A stretch of DNA of 59,387 bases. It comes from a virus. The DNA lies in the IMG/VR virus record IMGVR_UViG_3300027969_000005, positions 1 to 59,387 of that record. One strand, given 5' to 3'. The notes under the pieces were generated by a model. It was not told the DNA's origin, ran no database searches, and saw only the letters and a list, made by a program, of their open reading frames with translations. Below, piece by piece: positions 10,111 through 41,118 of the stretch. The stretch's first letter is position 1, and every line of letters begins with the position of its first letter. The position numbers and the translations under genes are program-made.

Positions 10111-13100
10111 TTAGCGGCGCTTTTGGGCCCTCATGGCGACGCCAATGGCCTTGTTGACTGTGCCGCCCTTGTTCAGGCCGTAGTCTTTCTGCCGCTCAAG
10201 CCCCTGCTGAATGCTCTCAAGCATGCGATCATTGATCGGCTGGGTTTGCTTTTGTTCCTCAAAGAGCTTCCTAGCGGTTGATCGGCCCAAACTATCCGGC
10301 GAATAGGGGTGAATAATTTGACCGCTTTTTGTCGGGTTAGACAGCATCTGATCAATCACGTCAGGCATGGCATAGTGGCGCTGAACCAAGGGAACATCGC
10401 CCCAATATTCCCCCGGCGTGTCGGTGGAATATGTTGAGTGTTCAAAGGATTTAGGGTGAGTATCGGTGGCGTCAGGATTAAATTTTACAATTCGATGCCC
10501 AAGCATGTTTCCGGAAGCGCCCTTAACATCTGGATCGGAAATTGCAGCACGGGTTACGCCCACAGAGGGAAAGCCCTTTTTGGCCCACAAGGCAGTGTCC
10601 ATATATTTCACAATGTCACTGCGATGGCCGCCGGGAAGATCGCGGGCAAACTCACTTGCGGCCTTGGCGTTTTTGATTCCCGGCCAAGTCTCAAGATATT
10701 TGATAGCAGAAGCACGTTTGGCGACAGACTTATCGTCCGTGCCCTTTATGTGCTCACCGCGCATGATGCTCTCATCAAAAGCTTTTGCATCGGCTTTTGA
10801 GATATCTAGCGTCGGAATTTGAGCCATTAGGGCATCAAACATATTGTGCGATGAATCCACCGCCCTTGGACCCATTGGCCCAAAAGCACCGAAAACAGGA
10901 CCAGTTTTGGCCGCAGCCCGAATGACCTTTTGCAAAGCGGTCGCATGAGATGGGTTGTTTGCCCAGACCTGACCCTTGTTGGGCTCGCGCATGTAGGATG
11001 TGCCAGCATGCAGATCGACCGGCCAAGCAAGCTCCTTGCCGTTGATGTGCGTCAGGCGGCCAAGGGCAGATCGGTCACCGCCTAAATTCAAAAGCGTTCC
11101 GCCCTCTTTGTGCAGGGCCTCCCAGCTTTTATGCTGAATGTCCTTAGGGGTAACGCCGGGGATGTTCGCAACCGTTGCGGAAACGTCAGAAACGCCCATG
11201 GGCTGCTTGACGTTATAGAAGCTGCCGGTTCCAGTCTCGCCGCCCATTGGCGTCTTTAGGCTGCGGGCAATCATCAAAGCCGAATTGACGCTCTTAGGAT
11301 CGGCACTGAAGGGACTTGAGACCCTTGCCAAAGCCGCCCTGACCCTATCCATATCTGGCGATCCGCCCTTGCTAAAGCCAACCTCGCCACCCTTGGCATA
11401 TGCCTTAAACCCGCGCTTAAGGATGCTCTCGCGCATGCGAGGCGTGATGGTCAGGCCGGGCAGTGGTACGGAACCGTTTAACGAGGCAGGCACCCAATCA
11501 GCACGGCTCTCCGCCCCAACCTCATGATACCCCAAATGTGCTTCGGGATCGTGCTCACGAGCAAGCTTTATCAATCGGTTTGGCAAGAGCTTGTCGTAAT
11601 AGCCCTCCATGCCCTCTCCGCCAGTTTTTAAGTCGAGGTTAGATAGCTTTTTCCAATCACGATATGGCCCGTGAACCCGATCTCCGTGCCCGGCATGAAT
11701 CTTGTCCGCAATTTCTTTTCCAAAAATATCGCTTATTTCAGAATGAGTTTTTCCAGCGTGAGCCGACAACTCTTCACCGTTTGAATCATGAGCAACGACG
11801 GTGTGTGTGCCGTCCTCTTCAGGCTCATATTCAATATGGTCAATATGATGACTTAAGTCATATCTATTTGCCTGCTCTTTTCCGGGCGTCCAAACGAACT
11901 TATCGTAACCACCTTTAGCGGCCTCAATAAGTGCCCGCTTCAGCCCTAGATCGGTCCAGTTTTCGGTTTTATTAATATATGGGGCATCCGGCCCTATTCC
12001 GGCCACTCCTTTTTTTCGTGCATCCTGACCCCAATCGCTTTGCAACTCTTCAAGATGTAACACCTTTTGACCTTCAGGCGTAGATCGATCAGACATACGA
12101 AGATGTGCGACAACATTGGGTTCGTGCCAATGAGAAGATTGATAATTCCCCCCGAGAGCATCATTCTCAGGAAGATGCATTAGCACTTCTCGATAATTTC
12201 GTCTTGGCCCAGCCATTTGGTATTTGTGGTACATCGAGGCCCCGTGAGAGTTGCTAGGAAGCTCCTCTCTATCATCCGTAAAAAAGTCTTCCGGCAAATC
12301 CCAATCAGGACCATCCAGAATGCCAGTTTGGTTGGCCGGATTGGAGGCAACCTTATATTTGCCGTGTGGATGGTATGTCTTTTCAAGCAATTGCGGAATG
12401 CGATTGTGAAAATGATGAACCAAATCCTCTTTGGTTACGCTAGGTTGATTAGCAAACGCTTCATTTGCTCCCGACCATTTAAATTCATCGGCCTTTACGC
12501 CGGGCGATGTGGAAATGGCACGAAGCATGTCCTGAGGACGCCCCTTGGCCTGCTTTAGACTGTCGGCAGCCTTTGCCGCTTGGCTGTATAAGCCCGCATC
12601 GTTCAGATCATTGCCATCATCAACCTCGCCGCCCGCAGCCCGATGCACAGCCTGCCGATCGCGAATAACTTGCTCGGGGTGCTCAATGCCAATTGCCCCG
12701 CCCTCAGGCACCTGATGGCGCATAGCCTCGATCTGCTCAGCGGCGGTCGCATGCGTACCTGCAGCCGATACGACTTCGTGCCCTTCGTGGTCACGAGCGA
12801 CAACAGCCACGGGATGCTCGCCTTGCATGATACGCTTGGCGATGTCCTGCTTGGAATAGGGACCAAGGCCCAAAACCTCATTTAGGCGGTGTTGACGTGA
12901 GGCTTCGTGGATTTGCTCTTCGGTCACCAGCGCCGGGTTGAAGTGGAACGTGCCATCAGGCGTAATAGTCTCGCCAGCGCCGTCAGGAGCTTCAGGAGCG
13001 GGGTTTCCGCCCTTGGGGTACATGACAGCCTTCCGGCGGCCCTCCAGCAGTAGCTGGCGCTGGTGCTCAAGCGTCTTGTCGCTCTCGGGCAGGGTCTTAC

Positions 13101-15852: not shown

Positions 15853-18489
15853 CTATGCGGGGTAAAGCGGCTGCAATTGGCCGCCGGGATAGGTCTTCAT
15901 GGACTCGATCTCTTCAATTCGCTCAGCGCCACGGGTCAAAAGCCCAATATCACGCATGTGGCGCAAGGCCTGAGACACCGTATCGACCATATCGTCGTGC
16001 TTTCCCTTAGGGAATTGTCCGACTTGGGTGATTAAGGCTTCTGCCCACGACCGATCTGGCGCATAGATCATGCCCTCGGCAAACAGATGCTGGATCGAAT
16101 AGAGGCGAGACAGCTTATCTTGGCTCTTTGGGTCGTGAAGCTGCACGCCAAACCGCTCGTGGTTATACAGACGCCGGATTTCCTGCGCCACAGAGTGTCC
16201 GGCGGCCTTGTTCTCGATTAAAAGCACGTCAACCTTGAGCGACCGGCATGTCTTGGCGACCTTTTCGACCAGTTCGTGGATCTCCAAACGTGCCTCCCAA
16301 GCATGCATCAGCATGACCTTGGGCGCGGCGTCCATATAGGACCGGTCGATATACATTGGCCGACCATCAGCATCCAAAATGCGCGAGGCCTGCGCCGTCG
16401 TTTCAGACGTGAAGACGCCCCAGATGCTCAGGGCGCTAGGGTCATTCATTGTCTTGGTCGTATAGGCGGTGTCCAAAGACGCCACGATGTAATCCATCGG
16501 CGGGAAGGACGCATCCTCCCACAATTGCCACCAGTCTCGCTTGATGACACCGCCCCCGGCGGGCTCAGGACGCTGCTGTAGCTGACCGGCGGCGGAGAAC
16601 GGACCCAAGGCACGCTCAAGGCGCGACACCTCTGCATCGCCAAACCGCTCGGGCCAGAGCAGTTCGCCCGGTTCGCTTCGTGGATCCTTCCAGCCGATAC
16701 CAGATACAAATGACCGCTCAGGTTCATAACGCATGGGAAGCATCAGGTGCGTCCAGTCATCGCGCTCCTTCTCAAGGATGTGGCCGGTCAGGTCGTCTTC
16801 GGCCAGACGCTGCTGGATGATCACGAACGCGCCCGTCTTGGGATCGTTGAGACGGGTGCTCATGGTGCCGTCCCACCACTCCTTGGTGGTCTCGATCGTG
16901 GCCTCAGAGAAGGCCTCAGACGCAGCGTTGGGGTCATCGACGATTATGCAATTGTGGACGAGAACTCCATCAGCAAAGAAGTTGCTAAATTCCTCAACTT
17001 GTATGTCATAGACCCACTCCTCTCTTGTGCCCAAAGATGCAACAGAGGAGACACCGTCAAAGTTCCAACGTGATGTTTGGCATGACAAGGCTGGCAAAGA
17101 GTAATCAGGTTTTCCGGCTCGTTGTTTTGAGGGTTGTGATCCACATGATGGACATGAAGAATTGATCTTGCATGAGATCCCCGTGGAAGCTTCATCTCCG
17201 CCTCCCCGCAAGCTGTGCATTCGTGATCGTCCCGCTCCAAAACAACCCGCCTCATTAATTTGTAAAGATTCGAGTATGGGGAATTGTTCTTGAAGTTTGA
17301 GTTCAATCTCCCCCGCATTCTGTCCGAATGATCCGCATCCGCACAAGCTGGAGAACAATATATTGTCCATATCTTGCCGCTCGGCATAAGTTTCATTCCG
17401 AAAATCGTTCCACAGCGGGGGCAAGATCGTTTCTTTTGATTTTTCCACCGCCATATTGCCTTGCAAGCATCCGAACAACATTTCGAGTGTCGGGTCTTTC
17501 TTGGCTTTTCGCAAACGACGCATTGAGCCGTATTTTTTGTCGCATGATGTGCTGAGCAACATATTTTCGAGCAATAGGCATCCCGACTGTTTTGCTTGAG
17601 CGCCTTCCTTGCTTCGTATAGTTGTTTTTCCGTCCGCTTCCCGCAATTGTCGCAAATCAAATGAAGAACTATTGTCCTTCCCGTTTTCGACAATAAGCCC
17701 GTCTCCTCTCCCCATTTCAGAAGCAAAGATATATCCCCACCCCGGTGAGAAGATTGGATGGTCTCCAGTACAGATAAATCGATTTCCCGAAAATGAATCC
17801 AATTGATAGAGGTCATTTGACTTCCTACGGTGTGTGGCTAAAATTTTAGAACTTACCACCTTACCCCGTGAATGATCAAACGCCAATATAATGTCACCGA
17901 TTTTTAGAGATTCGATTGGAACATGGCCCGCAGGCGTTGAAACCATCGTTCCCGCCACAAAACAGCTTCCGCCCTCACCGGTCACCGCCGCGCCAACGGA
18001 CGTGATCAGGCGCTCACCGCCCTTGTCGTTGGAGAAACGGCTTTTGGTGTTTTGGTCGCTGTTGAGCGTAAACCGATCACCCCACATGGACTGATACCAC
18101 GGGCTCTCGATCAGGCGTCGGCACTTGACACTGTCTCGCAAGGTCAACTGCTGGGCATAGGACGCATGCAGGAACTGCACGCCCGGCCCAGAAGTGGGGC
18201 CGCGATAGCTTTGCGCCCATGTCCATGCTGGAAAAGCCACCGAAGTAATCGATGACTTTCCAAAACGCGGAGGCACATTAATTATTAGACGTCTAATTTC
18301 CCCATCAACAACGGCTTGCAGATGTTCCGCAATTGCCTCGATGGGCCATCCGTCAGTCCATGGTGAGCTATCGATGTAGCGCCACGCATGGGTCAAAAAC
18401 AGATAGAGGCTGTCTTCGTATTCCGCCCGATCCAAGTCGAGCAATTGTCTTTTGGCATCGACCGTCAGACCACCAAGATCAACCTTCAT
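15853..18489 (-). CDS. terL: Terminase large subunit interrupted by an intein
   Basis: Start ATG 18489 is preceded by GAGG; more distal starts lack a site. In this 878-aa precursor the ATPase Walker A motif is PPRFGKSS (73-80). Walker B, IIVDDP, begins immediately after C514. Nuclease acids are D673 (VASLDTAY), E759 (LLIEN) and D832/D833 (HDDMVD). An intein of 338 residues occupies C176-N513, leaving an extein of 540 residues, a normal terminase size. The protein cuts concatemers and pumps DNA into the head through the portal. It can work only after splicing restores the chain at GEGGS/CIIVDDP. It overlaps terS by 11 bases. Confidence 0.9.
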   Translation of the reverse strand: MKVDLGGLTVDAKRQLLDLDRAEYEDSLYLFLTHAWRYIDSSPWTDGWPIEAIAEHLQAVVDGEIRRLIINVPPRFGKSSITSVAFPAWTWAQSYRGPTSGPGVQFLHASYAQQLTLRDSVKCRRLIESPWYQSMWGDRFTLNSDQNTKSRFSNDKGGERLITSVGAAVTGEGGSCFVAGTMVSTPAGHVPIESLKIGDIILAFDHSRGKVVSSKILATHRRKSNDLYQLDSFSGNRFICTGDHPIFSPGWGYIFASEMGRGDGLIVENGKDNSSSFDLRQLREADGKTTIRSKEGAQAKQSGCLLLENMLLSTSCDKKYGSMRRLRKAKKDPTLEMLFGCLQGNMAVEKSKETILPPLWNDFRNETYAERQDMDNILFSSLCGCGSFGQNAGEIELKLQEQFPILESLQINEAGCFGAGRSRMHSLRGGGDEASTGISCKINSSCPSCGSQPSKQRAGKPDYSLPALSCQTSRWNFDGVSSVASLGTREEWVYDIQVEEFSNFFADGVLVHNCIIVDDPNAASEAFSEATIETTKEWWDGTMSTRLNDPKTGAFVIIQQRLAEDDLTGHILEKERDDWTHLMLPMRYEPERSFVSGIGWKDPRSEPGELLWPERFGDAEVSRLERALGPFSAAGQLQQRPEPAGGGVIKRDWWQLWEDASFPPMDYIVASLDTAYTTKTMNDPSALSIWGVFTSETTAQASRILDADGRPMYIDRSYMDAAPKVMLMHAWEARLEIHELVEKVAKTCRSLKVDVLLIENKAAGHSVAQEIRRLYNHERFGVQLHDPKSQDKLSRLYSIQHLFAEGMIYAPDRSWAEALITQVGQFPKGKHDDMVDTVSQALRHMRDIGLLTRGAERIEEIESMKTYPGGQLQPLYPA
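16944..17816 (-). CDS. HNH homing endonuclease nested out of frame in the intein
   Basis: 290 residues on the same strand as terL but in a different frame, starting inside the intein and ending 7 bases beyond it. The ATG at 17816 has AGGAAG 4 bases upstream; a TTG at 17693 after GGAGAGGAG is an alternative start. Three zinc-ribbon-like repeats follow: C55-x2-C58/C82-x3-C86, C99-x2-C102/C114-x3-C118, C132-x2-C135/C154-x3-C158. Then comes the HNH domain: CTAC (200-203), HVHHVDHNPQNNEPENL (221-237) and LCQPCHAKHH (240-249). It would cut intein-less terL copies to spread the element. Motifs are clear; expression is inferred. Confidence 0.8.
   Translation of the reverse strand: MTSINWIHFREIDLSVLETIQSSHRGGDISLLLKWGEETGLLSKTGRTIVLHLICDNCGKRTEKQLYEARKALKQNSRDAYCSKICCSAHHATKNTAQCVVCEKPRKTRHSKCCSDACKAIWRWKNQKKRSCPRCGTIFGMKLMPSGKIWTIYCSPACADADHSDRMRGRLNSNFKNNSPYSNLYKLMRRVVLERDDHECTACGEAEMKLPRGSHARSILHVHHVDHNPQNNEPENLITLCQPCHAKHHVGTLTVSPLLHLWAQERSGSMTYKLRNLATSLLMEFSSTIA
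16951..17964 (-). mobile_element. Class 1 intein in the terminase ATPase domain
   Basis: Block A begins at C176 (CFVAGTMVSTPAGHVPIESL). Block B is FICTGDHPI with T241 and H244. Block F/G is VYDIQVEEFSNFFADGVLVHN, ending in H512-N513 followed by C514. All residues for protein splicing are present, so the intein is probably active. Between blocks B and F (about residues 274-490 of the precursor) there is no LAGLIDADG or HNH motif in the terminase frame. Instead that DNA encodes an HNH protein in another frame. Confidence 0.88.
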
Positions 18490-18970
18490 TTGCCTCAAAT
18501 TCCTCTTCATCGGAGGTGTCTTTGTCGTATTGACCCTGCTTGTCGATCGCCTTTTCAAGGATCTCACGCAGTGAATCGCGCTGATCTTGGGTCAAATCGC
18601 GGCTATCGACCGTCTGCGTGCTGGTCTCGCTTTGGATCGGATTGCCGTCTGGGCCGGTAAGCTCAGTGCGGTTTGTCTCACGCCAGCCAAGCTGCGTCTT
18701 TGCCCAGAACATGGCTGCAGGGGCGCAGCTTTTGTGGTTGATGTCCGTGGCAATCTGGAAAAGGGTCGAGACGACCTTAAAGTTCTTCTCGCCCTTCGCC
18801 TTCTTAAGCTCAGCGGGATAGTATTTGACCAGCGTATCGACATGCAAACCCATCATGTCGGCCACCTGAAGGTTGGTCATACCCATGCCAGCAGCCTCGG
18901 CCACTCGCTCGCGGCTTTCGTCTGTGGCAACATGGGCTGGTCGTCCGCGTCGGCGTGGTGCGTCGGTCAT
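18479..18970 (-). CDS. terS: Terminase small subunit
   Basis: 163 residues. Residues about 15-55 form a helix-turn-helix (AAGMGMTNLQVADMMGLHVD), followed by a helical oligomerisation region with APAAMFWAKTQLGWRE (84-99), a hallmark of this phage protein family. The tail is acidic and Glu-rich. It should recognise the packaging site and recruit TerL, whose gene overlaps its last 11 bases. An AGGA site precedes the start. Confidence 0.85.
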   Translation of the reverse strand: MTDAPRRRGRPAHVATDESRERVAEAAGMGMTNLQVADMMGLHVDTLVKYYPAELKKAKGEKNFKVVSTLFQIATDINHKSCAPAAMFWAKTQLGWRETNRTELTGPDGNPIQSETSTQTVDSRDLTQDQRDSLREILEKAIDKQGQYDKDTSDEEEFEANEG

Positions 18971-24872: not shown

Positions 24873-25481
24873 TCAGAAGGGTATGTCATCATCCAGCCCT
24901 GCGCGGCTGTCAGCGAGTTTCAGAAGCGGATCGTCGATCGACGCACGCACTGCGACCACCGTAGCGCCCGGAAACGACCGCTTCACAGACTGGATGAAAT
25001 GCCCGCCCTCGACCATCCGGGCGACCTCCTCCAGCGTCCACAGTTCGACGTCACGACCTCCAGCGTCGTAGGTTGCCGCCTCCGAGGCGCTACGGGCGAG
25101 CGCCAGCACCCTTCCGTTGGCCAAGGCTATCTCCCAGACCCCAGACGCCAAACGTGGCTGTGCGGCCTCCGTAGCGACCCGGTCAGCAGCCTGCCACGCC
25201 TTGACCATCCGCTGCGACTGCACACGCACCTCCTCCAGATCGCCATGATGGATCGCATGGTTCACCAAATACCGCTGCCGGTCGAACCGCTCCCGCAGCC
25301 CGACATCGACCAGCATCCGCAGGCGACCCGCACCCCACCTTCGCTCCATCTCGATCGCCACTGCGTCCATCTCATCCAGTGCCGCCTGCCCCGCGATGTA
25401 GGTGCCGGGCGACCGCTGCCAGCTTGGTGCCGCCGGTCTTTCCACCGCCTTGGGTGCTGGTTTCTCATACTGCCTCGCCAT
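24873..25481 (-). CDS. Protein with SSB-type acidic C-terminal tail, 202 aa
   Basis: A mostly helical protein (residues about 35-110), then a small beta region (GVWEIALANGRVLALARSAS). The last residues are LDDDIPF, the same tip that bacterial SSB uses to recruit repair and replication enzymes. I see no OB-fold, so it may be an adaptor or an SSB-tail mimic. It lies beside the iterons and the primase-helicase, which fits a role in loading the replisome. The tail is seen in the sequence; the role is inferred. Confidence 0.65.
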   Translation of the reverse strand: MARQYEKPAPKAVERPAAPSWQRSPGTYIAGQAALDEMDAVAIEMERRWGAGRLRMLVDVGLRERFDRQRYLVNHAIHHGDLEEVRVQSQRMVKAWQAADRVATEAAQPRLASGVWEIALANGRVLALARSASEAATYDAGGRDVELWTLEEVARMVEGGHFIQSVKRSFPGATVVAVRASIDDPLLKLADSRAGLDDDIPF

Positions 25482-25514
25482 AGGGATTTCCTTATTTAAA
25501 GATTGGCTTTATTG

Positions 25515-25520
25515 ATTATA
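25515..25520 (-). promoter_or_regulatory. Possible -10 box for the SSB-tail gene
   Basis: A perfect TATAAT on the minus strand (25520-25515), about 34 bases before ATG 25481, in an A/T-rich 50-base gap. No good -35 hexamer is visible (TATGAT at 17 bases), so the site is tentative. Confidence 0.35.
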
Positions 25521-25530
25521 CCTATACAAC

Positions 25531-25839
25531 CTAAACGATCATACCAACTTGCTCAATGACCCACTCCAGCATGCCGGGGTGATAATCCTCCAGCAGCCTT
25601 GCCGATCGGTTGCGGGCGGCCACCCCATCCTTCACGCCGATCTGCCACATGCGCTTGGGCACCTTCTTGGCATCAAGGTAAAGCTGCGTCGAGATCCAGC
25701 CATGCTTGGACCAGTCCACGACATGCACTAGCAGCCACTTGCCCTTCTCGGCGATGATCACATCATTCGCCCTGCGCGACATCCTCACGCCCCCGACCAC
25801 ATAGGCCAGTTCGTCTGGGCCGATCCTTCTTCTGGCCAT
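25531..25839 (-). CDS. Hypothetical protein, 102 aa
   Basis: Basic alpha/beta protein with GAGAGGAG upstream of the ATG. Features: VGGVRMSRRANDVIIAEKGK, WLLVHVVDWSKHGWISTQLY and a helical end (LEDYHPGMLEWVIEQVGMIV). No known family recognised. Located between the iterons and the SSB-tail gene. Confidence 0.6.
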   Translation of the reverse strand: MARRRIGPDELAYVVGGVRMSRRANDVIIAEKGKWLLVHVVDWSKHGWISTQLYLDAKKVPKRMWQIGVKDGVAARNRSARLLEDYHPGMLEWVIEQVGMIV

Positions 25840-25910
25840 TGTTCAATCTCCTCTCAGATCATACGCCCAGCAGGGCATTGGGCTAATTCTGTCATATGGG
25901 TCGAAGACCC

Positions 25911-25985
25911 ATAGGGGGGCGAAGCGGAGTGTCGCGAGACCGCGCCAAGCGGGCGAAGCGTACCTCCGCGCAGACCCCCCCCTAT
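25911..25985. repeat. G-tract inverted repeat beside the iterons
   Basis: ATAGGGGGG (25911-25919) and CCCCCCTAT (25977-25985) form 9-bp arms around 57 bases. Inner CGGAG (25925-25929) and CTCCG (25964-25968) can extend the structure. A third, direct copy AT followed by seven G lies at 25999-26008. The strand asymmetry and position suggest a structural part of the replication origin, such as a primase-entry hairpin. Confidence 0.6.
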
Positions 25986-26011
25986 TTCACTAATGTTCAT
26001 AGGGGGGGCCG

Positions 26012-26185
26012 ACTTCCGCAAATGAACTTCCGCAAACCTCCGCAAACCTCCGCATTGATTTCATTGAGCTTTTAGACCGACTTCCGCAGACTTCCGCAGA
26101 CTTCCGCAAATGCCCATTTGTTGATTTCATTGAGCTTTTAGACCGACTTCCGCAAACCTCCGCAAACCTCCGCAAGACTTCCGCA
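26012..26185. repeat. Iteron array, probable replication origin
   Basis: Eleven copies of YTCCGCA on the plus strand fall in four clusters. Units within clusters are 10 bases apart (ACTTCCGCAG or ACCTCCGCAA), one helical turn. Two clusters are preceded by the same block (TTGATTTCATTGAGC followed by TTTTAGACCGA), an A/T-rich element, at about 26054-26080 and 26120-26146. The array ends 4 bases from the stop of the primase-helicase. Phased iterons plus an A/T block are the layout of plasmid-type origins. A frame through it (repeated RRFAEVCGSRSK) is best explained by the DNA repeat. Confidence 0.75.
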
Positions 26186-26189
26186 ACCA

Positions 26190-28340
26190 TCATTCGGCCT
26201 CCTGAATGGGCTGCCAGCCGTTGTCCGCACGACCGATGACCCGCAGTCCGCGAGCCTTGGTATTCTTGTTGTGTGTGTCGAGCGCGATGACGTTGTTCAC
26301 CAGCCAAGCCTCGATCATGGTGGCCGCCATCTCTGGCGTGATGCCCCAGCCAATGATGTGCTGAACCGCATGGCGACCCTCGTGGCGGGTCTGTGGGGCG
26401 TTGGACCACGGCTTGTCTGAGTTCCAAGCTGAGGACATCGCGTCGAGGATTTTCTGGCAGATTTCTTTCGATGGCCATGCGTCGGCCTGCGGCGGTTCCT
26501 CACGGGTGATGTGGGCATAGAGCGACTGCGTACCCCGGACATCGCCCGTGTCCGTCAGCGCGAGCCTGAAGGGCACCTTCCAGCCATCTGCTGCTGCCTT
26601 GATCTTTTTGGCGGTGAGGTAACCGATTTCCTCGCCCTCCTCTCTGGTGACGGACAGGATGCTGTCGGCTGCGCCATCGAGGACGGATGATCCGCGCATG
26701 GTGCCGGTGGACTTGGCGACGTGGTGAACACCCAGCACCGCGCAGCCGAAGGTCTCGCGCACCTCGTCGCAGGCCTTGATGAACAGGGTGATCTCCTTGG
26801 CCGCATTCTCGTCCGCGCCGGGCAGGACGCGAGAGACCGTGTCCACCACGATCATGGCCGGTGGATCGCCTGCGCGGTTGGCCGTGGCCTCGATCGTGCG
26901 GAGCAGGCGGTTGATGTCGTCGCGCTGCATGAAATTGATTGACTGATGGACGAGGTAGAACGGCACGTCGTTGACGTTCTGGCCGGTGCCCTGCTCCCAC
27001 GCCATGATCCTGTGTTTCATGTCCGTGGTGCCCTCAGGGCTGATATAGATCACCGGCCCATGGCGCTTGATGTCGCGTTCGAACCACTGGTCCTGCTTGG
27101 ATGCGATGCTGAGGGCCATGCCGATGGCTATGAACGATTTACCTGAGCCCGGTGCGCCGGGGATGAAATTGAGGCTCTTCTCGATCAGCAGGCCAGAGAT
27201 CAGCCAGACCGGATCGGGCAGGCGCTTGATCTGGCCGATGTCCAGAGCCTCATAGGTGTCGGCTATCGGTGCAAACTCATCCGTGATCTCGCCGGTCTCA
27301 GGATCGTAAGCGGGTGCCGCGTCCGGTCGATAGGGCGCGGCGTCCTGCTTTGGGCTGGGTTGACTAGCTGCCTCCGCCACCTTCGTGTTCCACATGCCGA
27401 TAGCTATGGCCCACTTTTGCTGGAACAGGCTGATGCCCCTGCCCTCACGCTCAAGCAGGATATGGTTGGCTGTGCCGGGCTCTCGGATGCGCGATTTGAC
27501 GTTGCGCTCGTAAAGCTGCCAAGCGTCTCGCATGTGCTCTGGTTCGGTGGGGGCGATGGGGAAGCCCGCCGTCTCCCTGTAGAGGTCAAGGACGCGACCC
27601 CAGATCAACCGGGTCATATAGTCCTCACGACCATCGATGATGGCTCCAAAGGCGTCCGTGGCGGCCTCAGGCGTCGGTGTGGAGGTGACAGGCCCCTGTG
27701 GCTGCGTGTCAGCGCCGCTGGCGGCTGTCCTGCCATGCTGGGCTAGTAGGGCGTCCACAGCATTGCAAAGCCACATGGGGGCTTCCTCGGCATCCATGTC
27801 CCATGGTGCCAGACCGTCGAGCCACTGGTAGACGCCCAGCACGCCCTGAGACGGCGGCAGCATGGCAAAGCCTCCGAAGCCCCTGATGTCCACGCCGATA
27901 GGCGTCTTGCCTGTCGGAGGTGTCCACCAGTCTGGGGCTGCGAACACAAGTTGCAGGCCGCCGGACTGCGTGCGCTGCGTCCATGTCTCGATGGCCATGC
28001 CATTGTTGTGCAGAGCCAGCAGGCCCTGCCACCACTGGTTTGCTGCGTCCGTTTTTGACGTATCGAGGTCCAGCACCCAGTAGCGTTTGCCGTGCGCCTT
28101 CACGCCGGTGATCATGCCCATATTGATCCGCAGGCGATACTGGCCAGATGTGGCGTCGTACCACTGCGTGAACAGTTGATCGTCGATCAGATCGTTCTCG
28201 TGAATCCGCCATGGCACCGCTGGCCGCTTCCACTGATCCGATTCGCCCGGCGCGAGAGCCGGGACGACCTGAAAGCCTTTTGATCGGTACATATCCGCCC
28301 ACTGCTGGGGCGACGAAAATTCGGGATCGAAATCGGTCAT
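26190..28340 (-). CDS. Primase-polymerase / RepA-type helicase
   Basis: 716 residues with two domains. The N-terminal 200 match bifunctional primase/polymerase (PrimPol): catalytic pair D91/D93 (VLDLDTS), SGGLQLVF (126-133) and GVDIRGFGGFAMLPPSQ (149-165). The usual His of SGGxH is Gln130. Residues about 375-600 are an AAA/RecA-type helicase like RSF1010 RepA: Walker A GAPGSGKS (395-402), Walker B MIVVDTVS (496-503), GVHHVAKS (537-544) and GSSVLDGAAD (550-559). It should open and prime phage DNA at the adjacent iterons. No phage polymerase is present, so the host enzyme is presumably used. Confidence 0.85.
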   Translation of the reverse strand: MTDFDPEFSSPQQWADMYRSKGFQVVPALAPGESDQWKRPAVPWRIHENDLIDDQLFTQWYDATSGQYRLRINMGMITGVKAHGKRYWVLDLDTSKTDAANQWWQGLLALHNNGMAIETWTQRTQSGGLQLVFAAPDWWTPPTGKTPIGVDIRGFGGFAMLPPSQGVLGVYQWLDGLAPWDMDAEEAPMWLCNAVDALLAQHGRTAASGADTQPQGPVTSTPTPEAATDAFGAIIDGREDYMTRLIWGRVLDLYRETAGFPIAPTEPEHMRDAWQLYERNVKSRIREPGTANHILLEREGRGISLFQQKWAIAIGMWNTKVAEAASQPSPKQDAAPYRPDAAPAYDPETGEITDEFAPIADTYEALDIGQIKRLPDPVWLISGLLIEKSLNFIPGAPGSGKSFIAIGMALSIASKQDQWFERDIKRHGPVIYISPEGTTDMKHRIMAWEQGTGQNVNDVPFYLVHQSINFMQRDDINRLLRTIEATANRAGDPPAMIVVDTVSRVLPGADENAAKEITLFIKACDEVRETFGCAVLGVHHVAKSTGTMRGSSVLDGAADSILSVTREEGEEIGYLTAKKIKAAADGWKVPFRLALTDTGDVRGTQSLYAHITREEPPQADAWPSKEICQKILDAMSSAWNSDKPWSNAPQTRHEGRHAVQHIIGWGITPEMAATMIEAWLVNNVIALDTHNKNTKARGLRVIGRADNGWQPIQEAE

Positions 28341-28480: not shown

Positions 28481-28843
28481 CTATGGATCAACCCCCAGCG
28501 CACGGTCAATCAATTCTCTGCCCCTCGGTGCGAGCAGATATCCAACCATTGTTGTGGTGATGATATCCGCCCCCAGCTTTTTCCGCATCCGGCTGACATA
28601 GACCTTTACGTCGTGGTTGGTCTGGGGGTCTTCGGTCCTCTGGTGAACACGGTTCGCATGCAGGAAGTCTGAGCGTCTGGGGCGACCATTGGCATGGTAC
28701 AGGTGCATGAGGATACCAGCCTCATTGGGCGTGATGCCATAGGCCATGCACAGCTTGGCGTGCGCCTCTGTGTGGGCGTAGCCGATCTGCAGTTCCAGAT
28801 CAGCGATCTTGGCCTTCAGCTCTTCGCATTGGGGACAGGTCAT
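28481..28843 (-). CDS. Winged-helix regulator, CtrA/OmpR-type DNA-binding domain
   Basis: 120 residues. A short N-terminal coiled coil with C3-x2-C6 (MTCPQCEELKAKIADLELQI) replaces the receiver domain. Residues about 35-115 form a winged helix: ITPNEAGILMHLYHANGRPR, HDVKVYVSRMRKKLGADIIT and the wing TTMVGYLLAPRG. The VKVYVSRMRKKLG helix is that of CtrA/OmpR recognition helices. Lacking a phosphorylation domain, it may act constitutively on phage or CtrA-type host promoters. Its stop precedes the RuvC-like gene start overlap region (28840). Confidence 0.72.
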   Translation of the reverse strand: MTCPQCEELKAKIADLELQIGYAHTEAHAKLCMAYGITPNEAGILMHLYHANGRPRRSDFLHANRVHQRTEDPQTNHDVKVYVSRMRKKLGADIITTTMVGYLLAPRGRELIDRALGVDP

Positions 28844-29316
28844 TTCAGGCCTGCCCCATAAATCGCGATCAGGGATGCGTCTGATCGACCGTCGTCTTTG
28901 ATGCGCTTAAACAGATCAGCCTGATCGGGCCAGATTTCCATAGCCCTCTGGCGCGATCCGTCTTTGCCGCCACGAACCTTGATAGCCATCTGCCAGACCT
29001 TCGGGGTGACGATGGTCGTGGGGATCCCACAGGCGGCCAGAGCGCCGATCACCACGCCTGTGCTGTAACCGAAGCTGAACACGCTGGTGACGCCTTGGCC
29101 GGGCATAGCACCCACGCGCTCAACGCAAGCGGAGGCGATCTGCTGCTCCTGCGACGACAGAATGTGCGCGACCATCGCCGGGCTGATTTCGCGTTTCTTT
29201 TTGCCAGACCGCATGACCTCAAGGGTTGGCATGTCGTGGACCTCGATCTGGTGCGAGGCGGTGTCGTAAAAGGCGATGGCCCCGGACAGGCCGGGATCGA
29301 TACCGATGACTATCAT
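28840..29316 (-). CDS. RuvC-like Holliday junction resolvase
   Basis: Start ATG 29316 (MIVIGIDPGLSGAIAFYD) with AGGAAAC upstream; a longer reading to 29490 has no support. 158 residues with the RuvC acids: D7 (GIDPGLSGA), E66 (CVERVG), and D142/D146 (KDDGRSDASLIAIYG). It would cut branched DNA before packaging or during recombination. It overlaps the regulator gene downstream by ATGA. Confidence 0.85.
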   Translation of the reverse strand: MIVIGIDPGLSGAIAFYDTASHQIEVHDMPTLEVMRSGKKKREISPAMVAHILSSQEQQIASACVERVGAMPGQGVTSVFSFGYSTGVVIGALAACGIPTTIVTPKVWQMAIKVRGGKDGSRQRAMEIWPDQADLFKRIKDDGRSDASLIAIYGAGLK

Positions 29317-29327
29317 TTGGTTGTTTC

Positions 29328-29456
29328 CTAAATTTCTGTTTTGAACCAGACAAAATGAGGGATCTGCGCCGCCTGCCGATACGCCGCGATGACGTAGGCT
29401 GGCGGCGCGGCGGCAGGGCGCAGGACGGTAAGCTGCGCCGGGGTGAGGGAGATCAT
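29328..29456 (-). CDS. Small hypothetical protein, 42 aa
   Basis: ATG 29456 overlaps the stop of the 107-aa gene (GAATGA) and the gene ends with TAG at 29328, 11 bases before the RuvC start. Sequence starts MISLTPAQLTVLRPAAAPPA and ends HFVWFKTEI. Supported only by coupling; weak otherwise. Confidence 0.4.
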   Translation of the reverse strand: MISLTPAQLTVLRPAAAPPAYVIAAYRQAAQIPHFVWFKTEI

Positions 29457-29776
29457 TCTCCAGACTTGCGCTTGAGGGCCGCGTCGGCAAGGGCGCCCAT
29501 CGCAGGGTTTGCGGTGTGGTCGGCGATCAGTTCCTCGCCATCGGGGTCATTACCCCAGACGAGAAGCATCCAACCGACCTTGTTGCCGGTGGCGTCGAAA
29601 AACAGCATCTGGTCTTCGTCGGTCTCACCGATGTCGTCCCAGATCTCATAGAAGGTGGTGGATCGTGGCGACCACTCCTCGCCGTCATGGACGGCGATCG
29701 AGTAGCCTTCAGCCAGCGCGGCCTTGACCAGACGGCGGGCGACGCGCTGCTCACCCCTGTTAAGTTCTGCGTACAT
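29453..29776 (-). CDS. Hypothetical protein, 107 aa
   Basis: Begins MYAELNRGEQRVARRLVKAA, then HDGEEWSPRSTTFYEIWDDI and a strand-rich centre (EDQMLFFDATGNKVGWMLLV) with an acidic loop (GNDPDGEELIADHT). Resembles small alpha/beta phage proteins of unknown function. It lies between the membrane protein and RuvC in one minus operon. Confidence 0.6.
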   Translation of the reverse strand: MYAELNRGEQRVARRLVKAALAEGYSIAVHDGEEWSPRSTTFYEIWDDIGETDEDQMLFFDATGNKVGWMLLVWGNDPDGEELIADHTANPAMGALADAALKRKSGE

Positions 29777-30244: not shown

Positions 30245-30814
30245 TTACCGATGACCAACCGCATGTCGAAATTTCCGCTTCGGCGGCGGGCTGGCAATGG
30301 TGCCCATCTTGCGGTGGAACCGGCAATAGGATGACCCGTCGTCCTTAGTCTCGCCGCACATCTTCATGCTGTCGCCCTCGCCGGGCTGTAGCGTCTCCAC
30401 AGGCCACCGGCACCCGCCAGAGCGCAAGAGTGCCAAGGGTGCCGACCAAGCCCCTGTGGGCGGCTCTGGCGGCGTTTCTGTGGCTTTTTGAGGGACTATG
30501 GCCATGCGGGGCTTCTCAGGCTCTGGGGGTTTGGGTGGGGCCGCAAGCTTAAAAGGGACACGCTTCCACGGGTTGGCGAAATTGTGCCGAACGCCACGGT
30601 TATTGATCCTTTTAAACGTGATCGTGGATTCTGGCAATTCAGGCGCGACGCCCTTGGTCCTGAGGCGGCTCAATTTGCCTATCACCGCGTTTCGGGTCAC
30701 GCCGTAGCCAAGTTCCTTCGCGATCTGGGAGGCTGTTTTGCCCGCAACGTACATATCGACAAGGCGCGTGATGGCATCCTCTGTCCAGTCAAAGCAGTCT
30801 TCTCTTTTGGTCAT
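30245..30814 (-). CDS. gcrA: GcrA-like cell-cycle regulator
   Basis: 189 residues from ATG 30814, overlapping the previous stop (ATGA). N-terminal HTH (TEDAITRLVDMYVAGKTASQ, IAKELGYGVTRNAVIGKLSR) is the DNA-binding part of GcrA. A Pro-rich linker is followed by the sigma-interacting-type end GGCRWPVETLQPGEG and MCGETKDDGSSYCRFHRK. In Caulobacter GcrA binds sigma-70 and activates methylated promoters. The phage copy could redirect host RNA polymerase. Full-length; no missing motif. Confidence 0.88.
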   Translation of the reverse strand: MTKREDCFDWTEDAITRLVDMYVAGKTASQIAKELGYGVTRNAVIGKLSRLRTKGVAPELPESTITFKRINNRGVRHNFANPWKRVPFKLAAPPKPPEPEKPRMAIVPQKATETPPEPPTGAWSAPLALLRSGGCRWPVETLQPGEGDSMKMCGETKDDGSSYCRFHRKMGTIASPPPKRKFRHAVGHR

Positions 30815-31164
30815 TGAGTGGACCCTTCCATATGAAAGAATTGTATAGGAAATTGCGATAGTGCTGCGGCCCGACACCGATCGATCAGGGTGTCCTCCGG
30901 TTCACAGCAGGCATCGCAAATGAAGCCGATCAGGTGGGTCCGATCGGTGTAGCCATCCTTGATCGAGTAGGTGATCGAGATGGCGGCGGCATCGAGGGCG
31001 ACGTCGGGCAGGACGTCGGAGCAGACGGCGCAAATACCGCCGGGCCGCGATCTGGCCAGATTGTCGCCAATCTCTCGCATGAGGGCGGTGATGACCGGAT
31101 CGTCACCACCGAAGGACATATAGAGGGCGGCCTGCTCTGGCCGCACCACAAGGCAGTTGATCAT
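30811..31164 (-). CDS. Cys-pair protein, 117 aa
   Basis: Two Cys clusters, C45-AV-C48 and C82-DAC-C86 region, around SITYSIKDGYTDRTHLIGFI, suggest a zinc-binding beta fold. N-terminal helical (ALYMSFGGDDPVITALMREI). Coupled to gcrA downstream and the 74-aa gene upstream by ATGA overlaps. Function unknown. Confidence 0.6.
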   Translation of the reverse strand: MINCLVVRPEQAALYMSFGGDDPVITALMREIGDNLARSRPGGICAVCSDVLPDVALDAAAISITYSIKDGYTDRTHLIGFICDACCEPEDTLIDRCRAAALSQFPIQFFHMEGSTQ

Positions 31165-36672: not shown

Positions 36673-37776
36673 TTAGGATGCCTTTATGTAAGCGGTGGTG
36701 CCGGTGAAGGTTTGGACGACCGGGAGGGTGAAGGTGGTTTGGGCTACGGAGTAGGCTATGGTGGCGGAAGAGGCTGAACCATTGGCTACGGCAACAAAAT
36801 TCTGCACTCCTAGTAAACCGCCATAAGCAACAGAAGACCAACTTAAAGCCGCTGACATTGTTCTCGCAGTCCATGTTATCCCATCGGAAGATGAGGCTGC
36901 GGCAGTGCTTTGGGAGACTGCTACAAAAGCTCCGTTACCAAAAGTTACCGAACGCCAATTTCCTGATGAGGGTAAAGTTCGCTGGGTCCACGTGATCCCA
37001 TCTGTTGATGTGGCGGCGATGTTAGTCTCTGCTATTGCCGAAAAAACACCGTTTCCATAAGCCACGGCAAACCAATTCGCACTCGCAGGCAAAGTTCGCT
37101 GGGTCCACGTAATGCCATCGGGGGAAGTTGCAGCAATATTAGCGGGGCCTTGCGCTACCGCAACAAATGTTCCATTGCCATATGTAACGGAAGACCAATT
37201 TGCACTTGGCAAAGTTCGTTGGGTCCATCCCGCGCCGTTGGTTGATGATGCCGCGACGGTAGACGGACCCGTTGCTATCGCTACAAAAACGCCACTGCCA
37301 TATGCTGCGGATTGCCAAACGGGTGCCGTTGGCAAGGTATATTGGTACCAAGTAGCACCGTCATATGATATCGCAGCGACGTTGGTACCGCCAACCGCCA
37401 CAAACGTACCATTTCCAAAAGTTACGGCCCTCCAGTCCACGCTTGCTGGTAAGGTCCGCGCTGTCCACGTTATGCCGTCAGGAGAAGACGCGGCAATAGT
37501 AGAATTTGCAGCAACTGCTGCAAAAACACCGTTTCCATATGTTGCAGAACTCCACTGTGCAGACGCGGACATTGACCTAGCCGTCGCCGTAAACGCCGTC
37601 ACAGGCGTCGTCACCAGCGCAGCCAAAACGGGATACGAGGACGCCAAATATGAAGCAGTCGCGCTATTCAACGGCAAATACCCCGGAGCCGACAGCGCAT
37701 AGAGCGAGTAGGTGTAGTCCCCGACGTTCAGGCCGGTGGTGCCGAAGTTGACCGTGTTTGCGATGTTGCTAGCCAT
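36673..37776 (-). CDS. Seven-unit beta-propeller fibre protein 4, 367 aa
   Basis: Opens NTVNFGTTGLNVGDYTYSLY and GYLPLNSATASYLASSYPVL, shared with its three paralogues. Then come seven units of about 40-45 residues with the pattern ARTLPxSxxWxSVxFGNGxF followed by SxDGITWT (for example ARTLPASVDWRAVTFGNGTF, QRTLPASANWFAVAYGNGVF). Ends FTLPVVQTFTGTTAYIKAS. A seven-bladed propeller is expected. Likely a receptor-binding or sugar-binding fibre tip. Last of the four in transcription order; coupled by TAATG. Confidence 0.78.
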   Translation of the reverse strand: MASNIANTVNFGTTGLNVGDYTYSLYALSAPGYLPLNSATASYLASSYPVLAALVTTPVTAFTATARSMSASAQWSSATYGNGVFAAVAANSTIAASSPDGITWTARTLPASVDWRAVTFGNGTFVAVGGTNVAAISYDGATWYQYTLPTAPVWQSAAYGSGVFVAIATGPSTVAASSTNGAGWTQRTLPSANWSSVTYGNGTFVAVAQGPANIAATSPDGITWTQRTLPASANWFAVAYGNGVFSAIAETNIAATSTDGITWTQRTLPSSGNWRSVTFGNGAFVAVSQSTAAASSSDGITWTARTMSAALSWSSVAYGGLLGVQNFVAVANGSASSATIAYSVAQTTFTLPVVQTFTGTTAYIKAS

Positions 37777-38891
37777 TAGGTCGCCTTAACATATGCAGTG
37801 GTGCCAGCCTTGGGCGCTACTACGGGGAGGGTGAAGGACGTGGCGTTTACGGCGTAGTCTATTGTGGCTGCGGCAGAAGATGAGTTTGACACCGTTACAA
37901 ACTTGCCCGCACCAAAGGCTAGGCCGTACCATGTGGTGGAAGAGGGTAGGGTTTGAGATGCCCAAGTGATCCCATCGGGTGAAGTGGCGGCGGCAGTGGA
38001 CTGAGACACCATGACGAAAGTATTGTTGCCGTAGGCGCTTTTGGTCCACGTGGCCGAGGCTGGCAAGGTTCGGGCGGTCCAGTTAAACCCATCGGTAGAG
38101 GTTGCGGCGACCGTGCCGGTTCCACCTGAGTTGGCTAAAAAGATGCCGTTGCCGTAAGATAGGCCCGACCAGTTTTGTGCGGATGGCAATGTGCCCGCTA
38201 CCCATGTGATACCGTCAGCCGAAACGCTTGCGGCGGTTGACGCGCTTGAAGCTACCGCAACAAAAACGCCATTACCGTAAGCAACTCTAAACCAACTTGC
38301 CGAGGCCGATAGGGTTCGAGATGTCCAAGTGATCCCATCTGGGGAGGTGGCGGCAAGGGTAGACGAGGCGGCTACAGCGACAAACAGGCCATTGCCAAAT
38401 GTTACACTTGCCCAATTCCCAGACGGCATAGTGCGCTGCGTCCATGTAATCCCATCGGGAGACGTTGCCGCAACAGTGGATGGGCCGCTTGTTACCGCCA
38501 CAAAAATGCCATTTCCAAAAGTAACAGACCGCCAGTCTTGCGCGGATGGAAGGGTTCTCGCCGTCCATGTAATCCCGTCAGGCGAAGTGGCGGCTGCGGT
38601 GGACGTGGTAAATAGCCCGCCCGTCGTCACAAAGACACCGTTGCCAAAGGCCACATCGCCCCAAGACGCGCTGGAAGGCAAAGTCCTAGCCGTCGCCGTA
38701 TAGCTCACAGGCGTAATCACAGGCACGATCAGCGCCCCAAGCGCAGGGTAAGACGACACGAGGTAGGACGCCGTGTAGCTATTCAGAGGCAAGTACCCCG
38801 GCGAGGGCATGGCATACTGAGAGTACATCCAGTCGCCCACGGACTGTGTGGTGGCCCCGAAGTTGACAAGCGATGATGCGTTAGTGGGCAT
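37776..38891 (-). CDS. Seven-unit beta-propeller fibre protein 3, 371 aa
   Basis: Same plan: NFGATTQSVGDWMYSQYAMP, then PGYLPLNSYTASYLVSSYPA, seven propeller units (for example ARTLPSAQDWRSVTFGNGIF, QRTMPSGNWASVTFGNGLF, SRTLSASASWFRVAYGNGVF), and C-terminal FTLPVVAPKAGTTAYVKAT. Unit surfaces differ between paralogues while the W/FGNG core is fixed, as expected for binding proteins under diversification. Start overlaps the upstream stop region. Confidence 0.78.
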   Translation of the reverse strand: MPTNASSLVNFGATTQSVGDWMYSQYAMPSPGYLPLNSYTASYLVSSYPALGALIVPVITPVSYTATARTLPSSASWGDVAFGNGVFVTTGGLFTTSTAAATSPDGITWTARTLPSAQDWRSVTFGNGIFVAVTSGPSTVAATSPDGITWTQRTMPSGNWASVTFGNGLFVAVAASSTLAATSPDGITWTSRTLSASASWFRVAYGNGVFVAVASSASTAASVSADGITWVAGTLPSAQNWSGLSYGNGIFLANSGGTGTVAATSTDGFNWTARTLPASATWTKSAYGNNTFVMVSQSTAAATSPDGITWASQTLPSSTTWYGLAFGAGKFVTVSNSSSAAATIDYAVNATSFTLPVVAPKAGTTAYVKAT

Positions 38892-38893
38892 GT

Positions 38894-40006
38894 CTAGGTC
38901 GCCTTAACGTATGCGGTGGTGCCGGTGATGGGGGAGATTACGGGGAGGGTGAAGGTGGTTTGGGTGACAGAGTAGGCTATGGATGCTGCGGCTGTTGTTG
39001 GGCCTTGAGCCACAATAACAAAGTTTTGCGTTCCGGGTACGCCTCCGTAGCACCCCCCAACGTAATCTGCTGCAGGCAAGGTTTGGGCCGTCCAAGTTGT
39101 GCCATTGGTAGATGTGGACGCAACAGCCGTAGTTCCGGAAATTGCAACAAAGCTGCCATTTCCAAACATAACTTTTCGCCAAGTAGCAGAAGCAGAAAGC
39201 GTCCTTGATGTCCAAGTAATGCCATCGGATGACGTTACCGCAGCATTTGATCCGTAGGCCACCGCGACAAACGTACCATTCCCAAAAGCCACACTAGCCC
39301 AGTTTGCCGCCGATGAAAGCGTTCTGGCGGTCCATGTAAAGCCATCGGGAGATGTGGCTGCGGTGGTTGATAGCGATCCGCCCATAACGGCAACAAAGGT
39401 ATTATTTCCGAAAGCAACGCCAATCCAACTTCCTGAAGATGGAAGAGTTCTGGATGTCCAAGTGATACCATCTGGGGATGTTGCCCCCAAGGCAGACCCT
39501 TGCATTACGCCAACAAATATACCGCCTCCAAAACCAACATAGTATAAAGAAACGGGTGATGTTCTAGATGTCCAATTAATACCATCGGGTGATGTTATTA
39601 CACTTGTGCCGCCACTTAAAGCAACAAATATGCCATTACCAAAAACAACATCTGTCCATCCCGTTCCGACAAATGCGCTGGTTACCCAGTTTATTCCATC
39701 TGAACTAGTTGCTATGCGGCCATTACTAGCGCCACCCGTGCTAACAGCAACAAATTTTCCGTTTCCGTAGGCTACTGCGTTCCAGTCGGCTGATCCGGGC
39801 AAAGTCCTAGCCGTAGCCGTAAACGCCGTCACAGGCGTAGTCATCAAGGCGAACAGCGCAGGGTAAGACGAAGCCAGATACGAAGTCGCCGCATTATCCG
39901 CAGGCAAAAAGCTAGGAGCCGACCGGGGTCCAATCGCGTAGATGAACTCCCCCACGGCTGGGCCTGTGGTGCCGAAGTTGACGAGGCTTGCTGCTGAGAC
40001 TGCCAT
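38894..40006 (-). CDS. Seven-unit beta-propeller fibre protein 2, 370 aa
   Basis: The most divergent copy: NFGTTGPAVGEFIYAIGPRS, APSFLPADNAATSYLASSYP, then seven units including two degenerate ones (TSAFVGTGWTDVVFGNGIF, SRTSPVSLYYVGFGGGIF). Ends FTLPVISPITGTTAYVKAT. The middle of the gene is A/T-richer in synonymous positions than the N-terminal end, suggesting different histories for the blades. Confidence 0.76.
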   Translation of the reverse strand: MAVSAASLVNFGTTGPAVGEFIYAIGPRSAPSFLPADNAATSYLASSYPALFALMTTPVTAFTATARTLPGSADWNAVAYGNGKFVAVSTGGASNGRIATSSDGINWVTSAFVGTGWTDVVFGNGIFVALSGGTSVITSPDGINWTSRTSPVSLYYVGFGGGIFVGVMQGSALGATSPDGITWTSRTLPSSGSWIGVAFGNNTFVAVMGGSLSTTAATSPDGFTWTARTLSSAANWASVAFGNGTFVAVAYGSNAAVTSSDGITWTSRTLSASATWRKVMFGNGSFVAISGTTAVASTSTNGTTWTAQTLPAADYVGGCYGGVPGTQNFVIVAQGPTTAAASIAYSVTQTTFTLPVISPITGTTAYVKAT

Positions 40007-40008
40007 GA

Positions 40009-41118
40009 TCAGGTCGCCTTAACGTAGGCCGTGGTGCCGAAGCGAGCAGGCACGACGGGGAGCACGAAGGTGGTGGCGGTTACGGCGTAGTCAATAGTGG
40101 CCGCTATGGTGCCGGTGGTAATGGATGTAGCCACAAATTTACCCGCCCCAAAAGCCAAACCAATCCAATTAGATGAGGATGGCAATGTTCGTGCAGTCCA
40201 TGTGACGCCATCGGAAGAGGTCGCAGACGCAGAAGAGCCGTAAGCAATAGCTACAAAACTATTGTTTCCGTATCGTACTTGTCTCCACGTTGCGGTGCTT
40301 GGAAGGGTTCTTGACGTCCAATCTAACCCATTTGTAGACGTGGCGGATATTGTTCCAGAGGTAAATGAAAGAGCTGAAAACACACCATTTCCAAAAGCGA
40401 TGGTCGCCCACGAGGACGAAACCGGCATAGTTCCTAAAACCCAATTTACGCCATCAGAAGAAACAGCCGTGTTTGTTGCCGGGGAGGCAACCGCTACAAA
40501 AACGCCGTTGCCATAAGTTATGTCAGCCCAATTTAAAGAGGAAGGTAGCGTTCGCGCAGTCCACGTAACTCCATCAGTAGACGTAGCAGCGGCGTTGGTC
40601 GCGGTTCCCCCTATGGTTACAAAAATACCATTCCCGAAGGTTACTGCGGTCCAAGTTGATGAAGAAGGAAGCGTTCTAGCGGTCCAAGTTACACCATCGG
40701 GAGAAGTTGCTGCTGAAGTTGATCCGTTAGCGACAGCTACAAAAACACCATTTCCAAAAGTCACAGAATACCAAGATGCGGCGGATGGAAGCGTTCGTGC
40801 CGTCCAAGTGATGCCATCTGGAGACGTGGCGGCAGAAGTGGTGTTTGCCCCCAAAGTTACAAAAACGCCATTTCCATATGCAATAGCTTGCCACTGGGCA
40901 GTGGCTGGCAATGTCCTAGCCGTAGCCGAATAAGCCACAGGCGCAATCACCGGACTAACAATCGCAGCCAAGGCCGGATAGGACGACACAAGATAGGACG
41001 TGGTGTAGCTGTCCAGAGGCAGATAGCCCGGTGCCGTCCGCGCATAGGCGGAGTACAGCCAGTCCCCAACCGCTAGGCCCGTGGTGCCGAAATTGAGAAG
41101 CGTCGAGGCGTCAACCAA
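40009..41118 (-). CDS. Seven-unit beta-propeller fibre protein 1, 369 aa
   Basis: First of the four copies. NFGTTGLAVGDWLYSAYART, then PGYLPLDSYTTSYLVSSYPA, then seven regular units (ARTLPATAQWQAIAYGNGVF, ARTLPSAASWYSVTFGNGVF and others) and FVLPVVPARFGTTAYVKAT. The N-terminal part probably docks to the tail and the propeller binds the host surface. Overlaps the preceding fibre gene by a few bases. Confidence 0.78.
   Translation of the reverse strand: MVDASTLLNFGTTGLAVGDWLYSAYARTAPGYLPLDSYTTSYLVSSYPALAAIVSPVIAPVAYSATARTLPATAQWQAIAYGNGVFVTLGANTTSAATSPDGITWTARTLPSAASWYSVTFGNGVFVAVANGSTSAATSPDGVTWTARTLPSSSTWTAVTFGNGIFVTIGGTATNAAATSTDGVTWTARTLPSSLNWADITYGNGVFVAVASPATNTAVSSDGVNWVLGTMPVSSSWATIAFGNGVFSALSFTSGTISATSTNGLDWTSRTLPSTATWRQVRYGNNSFVAIAYGSSASATSSDGVTWTARTLPSSSNWIGLAFGAGKFVATSITTGTIAATIDYAVTATTFVLPVVPARFGTTAYVKAT

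Follow-up and report, generated by a model that had tools for sequence, protein, structure and literature searches.

The iteron array and the adjoining helicase-primase gene

The window analysed here is the whole 59,387-nucleotide viral record IMGVR_UViG_3300027969_000005. It contains an array of short repeats (iterons) at 26014..26185, next to the gene for a 716-aa PrimPol–RepA-type helicase (26190..28340, minus strand), the proposed initiator. The array consists of 11 YTCCGCA units in three 10-bp-phased clusters. Read on the minus strand, on which the gene lies, the unit is GCGGARRT. With the last array base at 26185 and the helicase stop codon starting from 26190, the gap between them is 4 bp. 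The array is thus 3′ of the helicase gene, and it is 5′ of the genes for a 102-aa and a 202-aa protein.

All 11 units lie in a single direction on the plus strand, starting at 26014, 26028, 26038, 26048, 26082, 26092, 26102, 26148, 26158, 26168, and 26179. The steps between them are 14, 10, 10, 34, 10, 10, 46, 10, 10, and 11 bp. Within clusters the step is therefore 10 bp, once 11 and once 14, and from cluster to cluster it is 34 and 46 bp. Over the whole window, 31 YTCCGCA matches were counted where 23.9 are expected, an excess for which the array alone accounts. At the window's own rate, finding at least 11 units within 172 bp has a Poisson probability of about 4e-21, and a chance origin of the array is excluded.

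The clusters are separated by an A/T-rich 25-bp block (TTGATTTCATTGAGCTTTTAGACCG), repeated exactly at 26055..26079 (minus strand, CGGTCTAAAAGCTCAATGAAATCAA) and 26121..26145. The copies are 66 bp apart, and these spacers are 36% G+C in a genome of 57% G+C. A first-pass annotation had described the eleven phased units, the repeated block, and the 4-base distance from the end of the PrimPol/RepA gene, and the positions given here bear out each of these points. A palindrome (CCCCCCCTAT/ATAGGGGGGG, 25976..26008) marks the far edge of the array, and no T-tract terminator was found at it. Beyond this G/C palindrome is an outlying twelfth unit (GCGGAGGT, 25962..25969, minus strand). A 162-aa open reading frame (25990-26478) runs through the array and, in a different frame, into the helicase gene; it was set aside as mechanical only.

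The 716-aa protein has a PrimPol domain (PF09250, aa 18-190, E 2.9e-14), a RecA-like, RepA-type helicase domain (AAA_25, aa 369-545, E 1.5e-35), and a predicted C-terminal winged helix at aa ~622-703. This last domain, encoded at 26232..26477 on the minus strand, is the proposed iteron-binding part. Its alignment follows the pattern P-[FW]-S..PQT...RY......G......A......W...G.I....D..TK.KGL.V. Sequence searches of Pfam, NCBIfam, and PDB gave nothing convincing for it, and weak matches to cyclodipeptide synthases (E 0.008) were judged to be chance. An AlphaFold2 model built from 26 sequences predicts a helix-helix-helix-strand-wing-strand order with core pLDDT >90. Structural comparison of this model led to winged helices. 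The best match was the DNA-bound SAMD1 domain (Z 8.5; rmsd 2.6 over 70 residues), and the C-terminus of MCM was also among the matches (Z 7.1). Foldseek alone returned nothing below E 0.5. The solved domain of P4 alpha is not among the structural matches listed, which is no test of kinship. Since the fold is common, a winged helix by itself shows no function.

In the PrimPol domain of window-type proteins, the histidine of the GG.H motif (aa 127-131) is replaced by glutamine (GGLQL; GGRQL in locus L008). The group-B relative L007 retains GGKH.

Conservation of the array together with the C-terminal domain

Related loci were sought from the DNA side and from the protein side. A first scan with a single protein, and one with an alignment, returned nothing. 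A C-terminal profile of ~80 residues was built from eight proteins (those of L007, L008, L009, L013, L019, and the window, and two from isolated phages) and run over all loci. The loci that supplied the profile are therefore not independent; the remaining loci are. Many loci are near copies of one another, and distinct arrays number 80.

A repeat-only DNA scan of viral contigs gave 53 loci. Forty-three of these have at least 5 units, and the domain is present in 38 (35 within the fetched stretch and 3 elsewhere in the record). The other five (L015, L016, L022, L032, and L058) are contig fragments, with the array at or near the contig end in four. Only one of the 10 viral loci with 3-4 units, L009, has the domain. 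In bacterial genomes, 5 of 35 array loci have it, all in Alphaproteobacteria. For 15 of 27 non-redundant loci, no more than 40 bp separate the helicase stop codon from the start of the array. One of the fragments, L015, has a 9-unit array (11726-11908) adjoining a 202-aa homolog, and no domain-bearing gene on its 18.6 kb; a gene resembling a DNA cytosine methyltransferase is found upstream instead.

The reverse search used group-B helicase proteins only. This gave 79 new loci, 78 of them with the domain. At least 6 GCGGARRT units are present in 46 of the 79, compared with a maximum of 2 in 1,580 shuffles, and most of the other 33 have GCGAAAGT, ACGGAAGT, or CCGGAGGT variant arrays with the same layout. 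The pattern is mostly the same in 80 nearer relatives of the window protein, as far as their downstream sequence is long enough. Altogether, the domain was found at E <1e-6 in 195 loci, and a script could class the array in 147 of these. Many of the domain loci lacking a classed array end soon after the gene, and some do not.

The array is kept, in variants that preserve layout and phase, over helicases down to ~23% identity. Among isolated phages, the 716-aa protein has its nearest relatives in Rhizobium phage RHph_N65, at 40% across helicase and C-terminus, and in EBPR siphovirus 5, at 33%. Both have arrays directly after the stop codon, of GGCGGAGATA and GGCGGAAGTA, respectively, in ~10-bp steps. 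The idea of an RNA element was dismissed, since many relatives have arrays with units in both orientations. A literature search of partial coverage found no paper describing these arrays.

The domain is carried by proteins that differ elsewhere. It is found on window-type and group-B PrimPol-helicases, on the L019 helicase, which has a different N-terminal region, and on the helicase-only proteins L077 and L093. By these sequence comparisons, the C-terminal domain is the shared factor among array loci.

The spacers and edges of the array recur as well. Relatives have a CTAAGTCATTGAAATCATTG spacer, of which the window has a diverged form. A one-strand YAANNNNTTGAWW match is found in 29 of the 80 distinct arrays, against 0.6 expected from shuffles, and it is almost exclusively on one strand. 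Elements with a C-run and TA, or palindromes, are found in 33 of the 80 (0.3 expected), at the far array edge in the sequences read.

Exchange of repeats and covariation with the wing

A 38-kb circular element of Caenibius sp. WL, deposited as a plasmid and carrying a terminase gene, encodes the domain, and TGCGGAA repeats follow the stop codon. Related helicases with a C-terminus that does not match the profile have different repeats at the same place. These are GTTCCCA in Rhizobium phage RHph_Y3_1, where the spacer TTAAGTCATTGAA is retained, CGCAACA in a Methylobacterium plasmid, and CGGGACA in a Xanthobacter plasmid. Not every RepA-like phage helicase has this array layout. Among the phages examined, those of Corynebacterium, Mycobacterium, Caulobacter, and Burkholderia lack such an array at that place, and none was seen in Wolbachia phage WO; 3′ of the genes for the other RepA-like phage helicases that were looked at, there is either no room or no array. 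Roseobacter phage CRP-406 (L195), on which the domain profile was not run, has GGCTGGA repeats in ~10-bp steps from 3469, at the 3′ end of a RepA-type primase-helicase gene.

A different view of the array is that of a packaging or recombination site or a functionless simple repeat. Short repeats are generally known to occur at such sites, but this array is beside replication genes and at least 7 kb from the terminase gene (15853-18567). In addition, its unit persists across phages whose helicases share only ~23% identity, the domain shows corresponding changes, and the arrays that lack the domain are mostly short perfect repeats of 3-4 units. We regard such a role as very improbable.

A finer correspondence was found within the array family. 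Most loci have G as the first iteron base, as the window does; some have A, such as L228, or C, such as L250. At position 693 of the helicase, N, K, H, R, or Q nearly always accompanies a G-first iteron, and S, A, V, T, or D mostly accompanies A- or C-first iterons. In clade A, the position of N693 is N, K, H, or R in 29 of 30 G-first loci and A, D, S, or V in 8 of 8 A- or C-first loci. Trees were built without the C-terminal domain and P values were calculated against length-weighted random branches. Seven changes of base class were found in two clades; six of the seven fall on branches with a change of residue class, one a reversal. For a grouping into donor and non-donor residues that was chosen after the data were inspected, P for branch co-change is 0.0009 and 0.0003 in the two clades. 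With a fixed four-group alphabet, the 693 column ranks first of the 79 domain columns. In the model, residue 693 is located between two strands, in the wing. This is good, though not final, evidence that the wing reads the first iteron base.

We conclude that the array is very probably a phage replication origin and the 716-aa protein its initiator. A plasmid-like origin, as the first-pass annotation had it, is the best-supported reading in view of array conservation in relatives, the two-way searches, and the covariation. The same annotation had left the binder as either the primase-helicase or the 102-aa protein. The association between C-terminal domain and repeat and the covariation favor the primase-helicase, and the 102-aa protein is less likely since most array loci lack a homolog. 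Because domain and repeats find each other in both directions and base and residue covary, the C-terminal domain is the putative binder. The reading best supported by these comparisons places the iteron binder within the C-terminal ~80-90 residues of the 716-aa protein; most likely, the helicase-primase uses this winged helix to bind its own origin.

Several observations weigh against these conclusions. Besides the post hoc choice of residue groups, the fixed alphabet gives a weaker result (P 0.004 and 0.15; combined chi-square 14.7, 4 d.f.). Covariation at the fourth base (GCGG to GCGA, as in L152, a change that arose twice) also indicates wing residues, but columns of the PrimPol domain covary with that base as strongly as wing columns. 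Part of the fourth-base signal is thus shared ancestry, and we did not use it. Some loci, for example L211, L256, and L271, have the domain and ample downstream DNA with no recognisable array there, and several clades have 0.4-2.9 kb between the helicase gene and the array, which there adjoins the 202-aa gene. The YAANNNNTTGAWW spacer, which resembles the consensus for integration host factor (IHF), is present in 29 of 80 arrays but is not matched by the window's own spacers. IHF was not adopted as the spacer factor for this reason, and because many relatives keep just a CATTGAAATCATTG core. Finally, in two relatives the GC-skew minimum lies away from the array. The skew minimum of RHph_N65 is at 24.3 kb with the array at 34.9 kb, and in the 60-kb relative G021 the raw minimum is at 41.8 kb and the detrended minimum at 38.0 kb with the array at 31.2 kb. 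A skew turn near 26.1 kb had been proposed as a check. The window itself agrees, with a cumulative minimum at 26,249 (25,898 with the gap cut out), and third-position skew gives no clean turn. With the minima of two relatives off the array, GC skew is given little weight.

In the scheme we propose, the C-terminal winged helix would bind the phased GCGGARRT units, and its wing would read their first base. Lying on one face of the DNA, the units would gather several copies of the helicase-primase, and the A/T-rich spacers would bend or open between clusters. The RecA-like hexamer would then load and unwind, and the PrimPol domain would prime. Physical binding, melting, loading, and priming are steps that we infer.

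Neighboring genes and comparison with known systems

Two small genes follow the array on the helicase strand, and each bears on an alternative. The 102-aa protein (25531..25839, minus strand) has homologs in 30 loci. In locus L009, a 208-aa protein (10833-11459) joins a 102-aa homolog, as its N-terminal half (40% over 92 aa), to the winged helix of the helicases, and the 13-kb contig has no helicase on it. Owing to this fusion, the 102-aa protein is probably part of the same machinery. The fusion would also suit an origin whose main binder is separate (the 102-aa protein, the 202-aa protein, or a host factor), with the helicase only recruited, and 102-aa homologs do cluster near arrays in part of the family. 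They are missing from most array loci, however, and both the covariation and the exchange of repeats track the helicase C-terminus. The 202-aa model, a three-helix bundle with a small alpha/beta part and not an OB fold, has no clear structural relatives and no recognisable DNA-binding fold. We therefore consider a separate main binder unlikely, and the 102-aa protein a less likely one than the helicase C-terminus.

The 202-aa protein (24873..25481, minus strand) is a conserved downstream neighbor of the array. Its C-terminal tip, DDDIPF, copies the tail of bacterial single-stranded DNA-binding protein (SSB), and most of its 110 distinct homologs have an SSB-like tip (e.g., DDEIPF or NDPIPF). 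The protein is a candidate recruiter of host replication proteins. An array was detected no more than 1.5 kb upstream of 76 of the 110 homologs, and all 104 distinct homologs encoded on one contig with the domain are on the helicase strand. This placement, and the separation of array and helicase by 0.4-2.9 kb that some clades allow, is what one would see if the array were an operator through which the helicase or a partner controls transcription of the 102-aa and 202-aa genes, and not a replication start. On the other side, 5-14 sites, A/T-rich spacers, and a domain fused to a replicative helicase-primase suit an origin far better, and a scan for consensus only gave no promoter-like match in 25450-26450. 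An operator alone is improbable, though the array may be operator and origin together, as origins often overlap promoters.

Other genes of the window were noted as well. Just upstream of the helicase gene, 28481-29490 encodes a 120-aa Trans_reg_C winged-helix protein and a RuvC-like Holliday junction resolvase. A gene at 30245-30877 encodes a GcrA-like cell-cycle regulator (PF07750, E 1e-20), which suggests an alphaproteobacterial host. Four consecutive paralogous genes of 367-371 aa (mutual identity 46-62%) occupy 36673-41118; the one paralog scanned against PHROGs had no match.

The window has phased direct repeats near the proposed initiator gene (11 units, 10-bp phase, 4 bp away), as iteron origins do. 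RSF1010 (IncQ) combines an iteron origin with RepA, a RecA-like hexameric helicase. The 716-aa protein has a RepA-like helicase too (AAA_25, similar to RepA-like phage helicases; a hexamer is presumed), and gp5 of Wolbachia phage WO, which carries the annotation RSF1010 RepA-like, shares 41% identity with the group-B helicases across the helicase region. The iteron binder of RSF1010, RepC, is a separate protein, whereas in the window the binder appears fused to the helicase and PrimPol; no separate RepC was found among the proteins scanned.

In P4 alpha, the winged helix is C-terminal and the iterons are decameric; its primase is different and its helicase is of the SF3 type. Like the 716-aa protein, it has primase, helicase, and winged helix in one protein, and PMC4234260 describes the winged helix as binding origin repeats (citing Ziegelin & Lanka 1995 and Yeo et al. 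2002). The P4 iteron is other than GCGGARRT, and the window domain found no sequence match in the PDB search. SaPI Rep and SCCmec Cch2 use their C-terminal domain to recognise iterons that immediately follow the helicase gene, and the isolated C-terminal domain of Cch2 binds its origin (PMC7581432). These proteins differ in having another helicase class and no fused PrimPol, they belong to staphylococcal islands, and the Cch2 iteron is AAGTG. The 716-aa protein shares with the P4 alpha and SaPI Rep class a predicted C-terminal winged helix (AlphaFold model, Z at most 8.5), but its helicase is neither SF3 nor of the SaPI Rep type. With a RecA-like AAA_25 helicase, it would work like P4 alpha and SaPI Rep but is no member of their class.

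ORF904 of pRN1 is a PrimPol-helicase-winged helix protein with its origin just downstream of its own gene (PMC4234260). PF09250 is found in the window protein as well. However, pRN1 is an archaeal plasmid with an SF3 helicase and a 100-nt stem-loop origin without iterons, and the window has AAA_25 and iterons. A parallel to the exchange described above comes from the RepA and origin modules of PLE, satellites in Vibrio cholerae. There the initiator's DNA-binding domain and its cognate origin are exchanged together in nature, and origin swaps have tested this functionally (PMC8263062). PLE differs in its RepA_N domain, its ~30-bp semi-palindromic iterons, and the lack of a helicase-primase fusion. 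As the proposed scheme follows SaPI Rep/Cch2, P4 alpha, and pRN1, we judge the kind of system to be known already, and the helicase class, fused PrimPol, domain, and iteron to be a new combination.

More broadly, we favor, with moderate confidence, a large and so far undescribed family of phage origins, mostly in alphaproteobacterial phages. Its RepA-type helicase-primases would have exchangeable winged helices that match the adjoining iteron. Residue 693 would act as a code (a polar donor for G first, a small or nonpolar residue for A or C first), and domain and iterons would swap together while the spacer, which resembles a host-factor site, stays.

If this is true, an origin and an initiator would be supplied for many uncultured phages that lack a known replication start, and the rule for finding such origins would be to look 3′ of the RepA-type helicase-primase gene. 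The iteron variants with matching wing residues would be a compact test of origin specificity in winged helices. The SSB-like tail on the conserved 202-aa neighbor suggests how phages might engage the host replisome, and swapping of domain and iterons may be how phages escape incompatibility.
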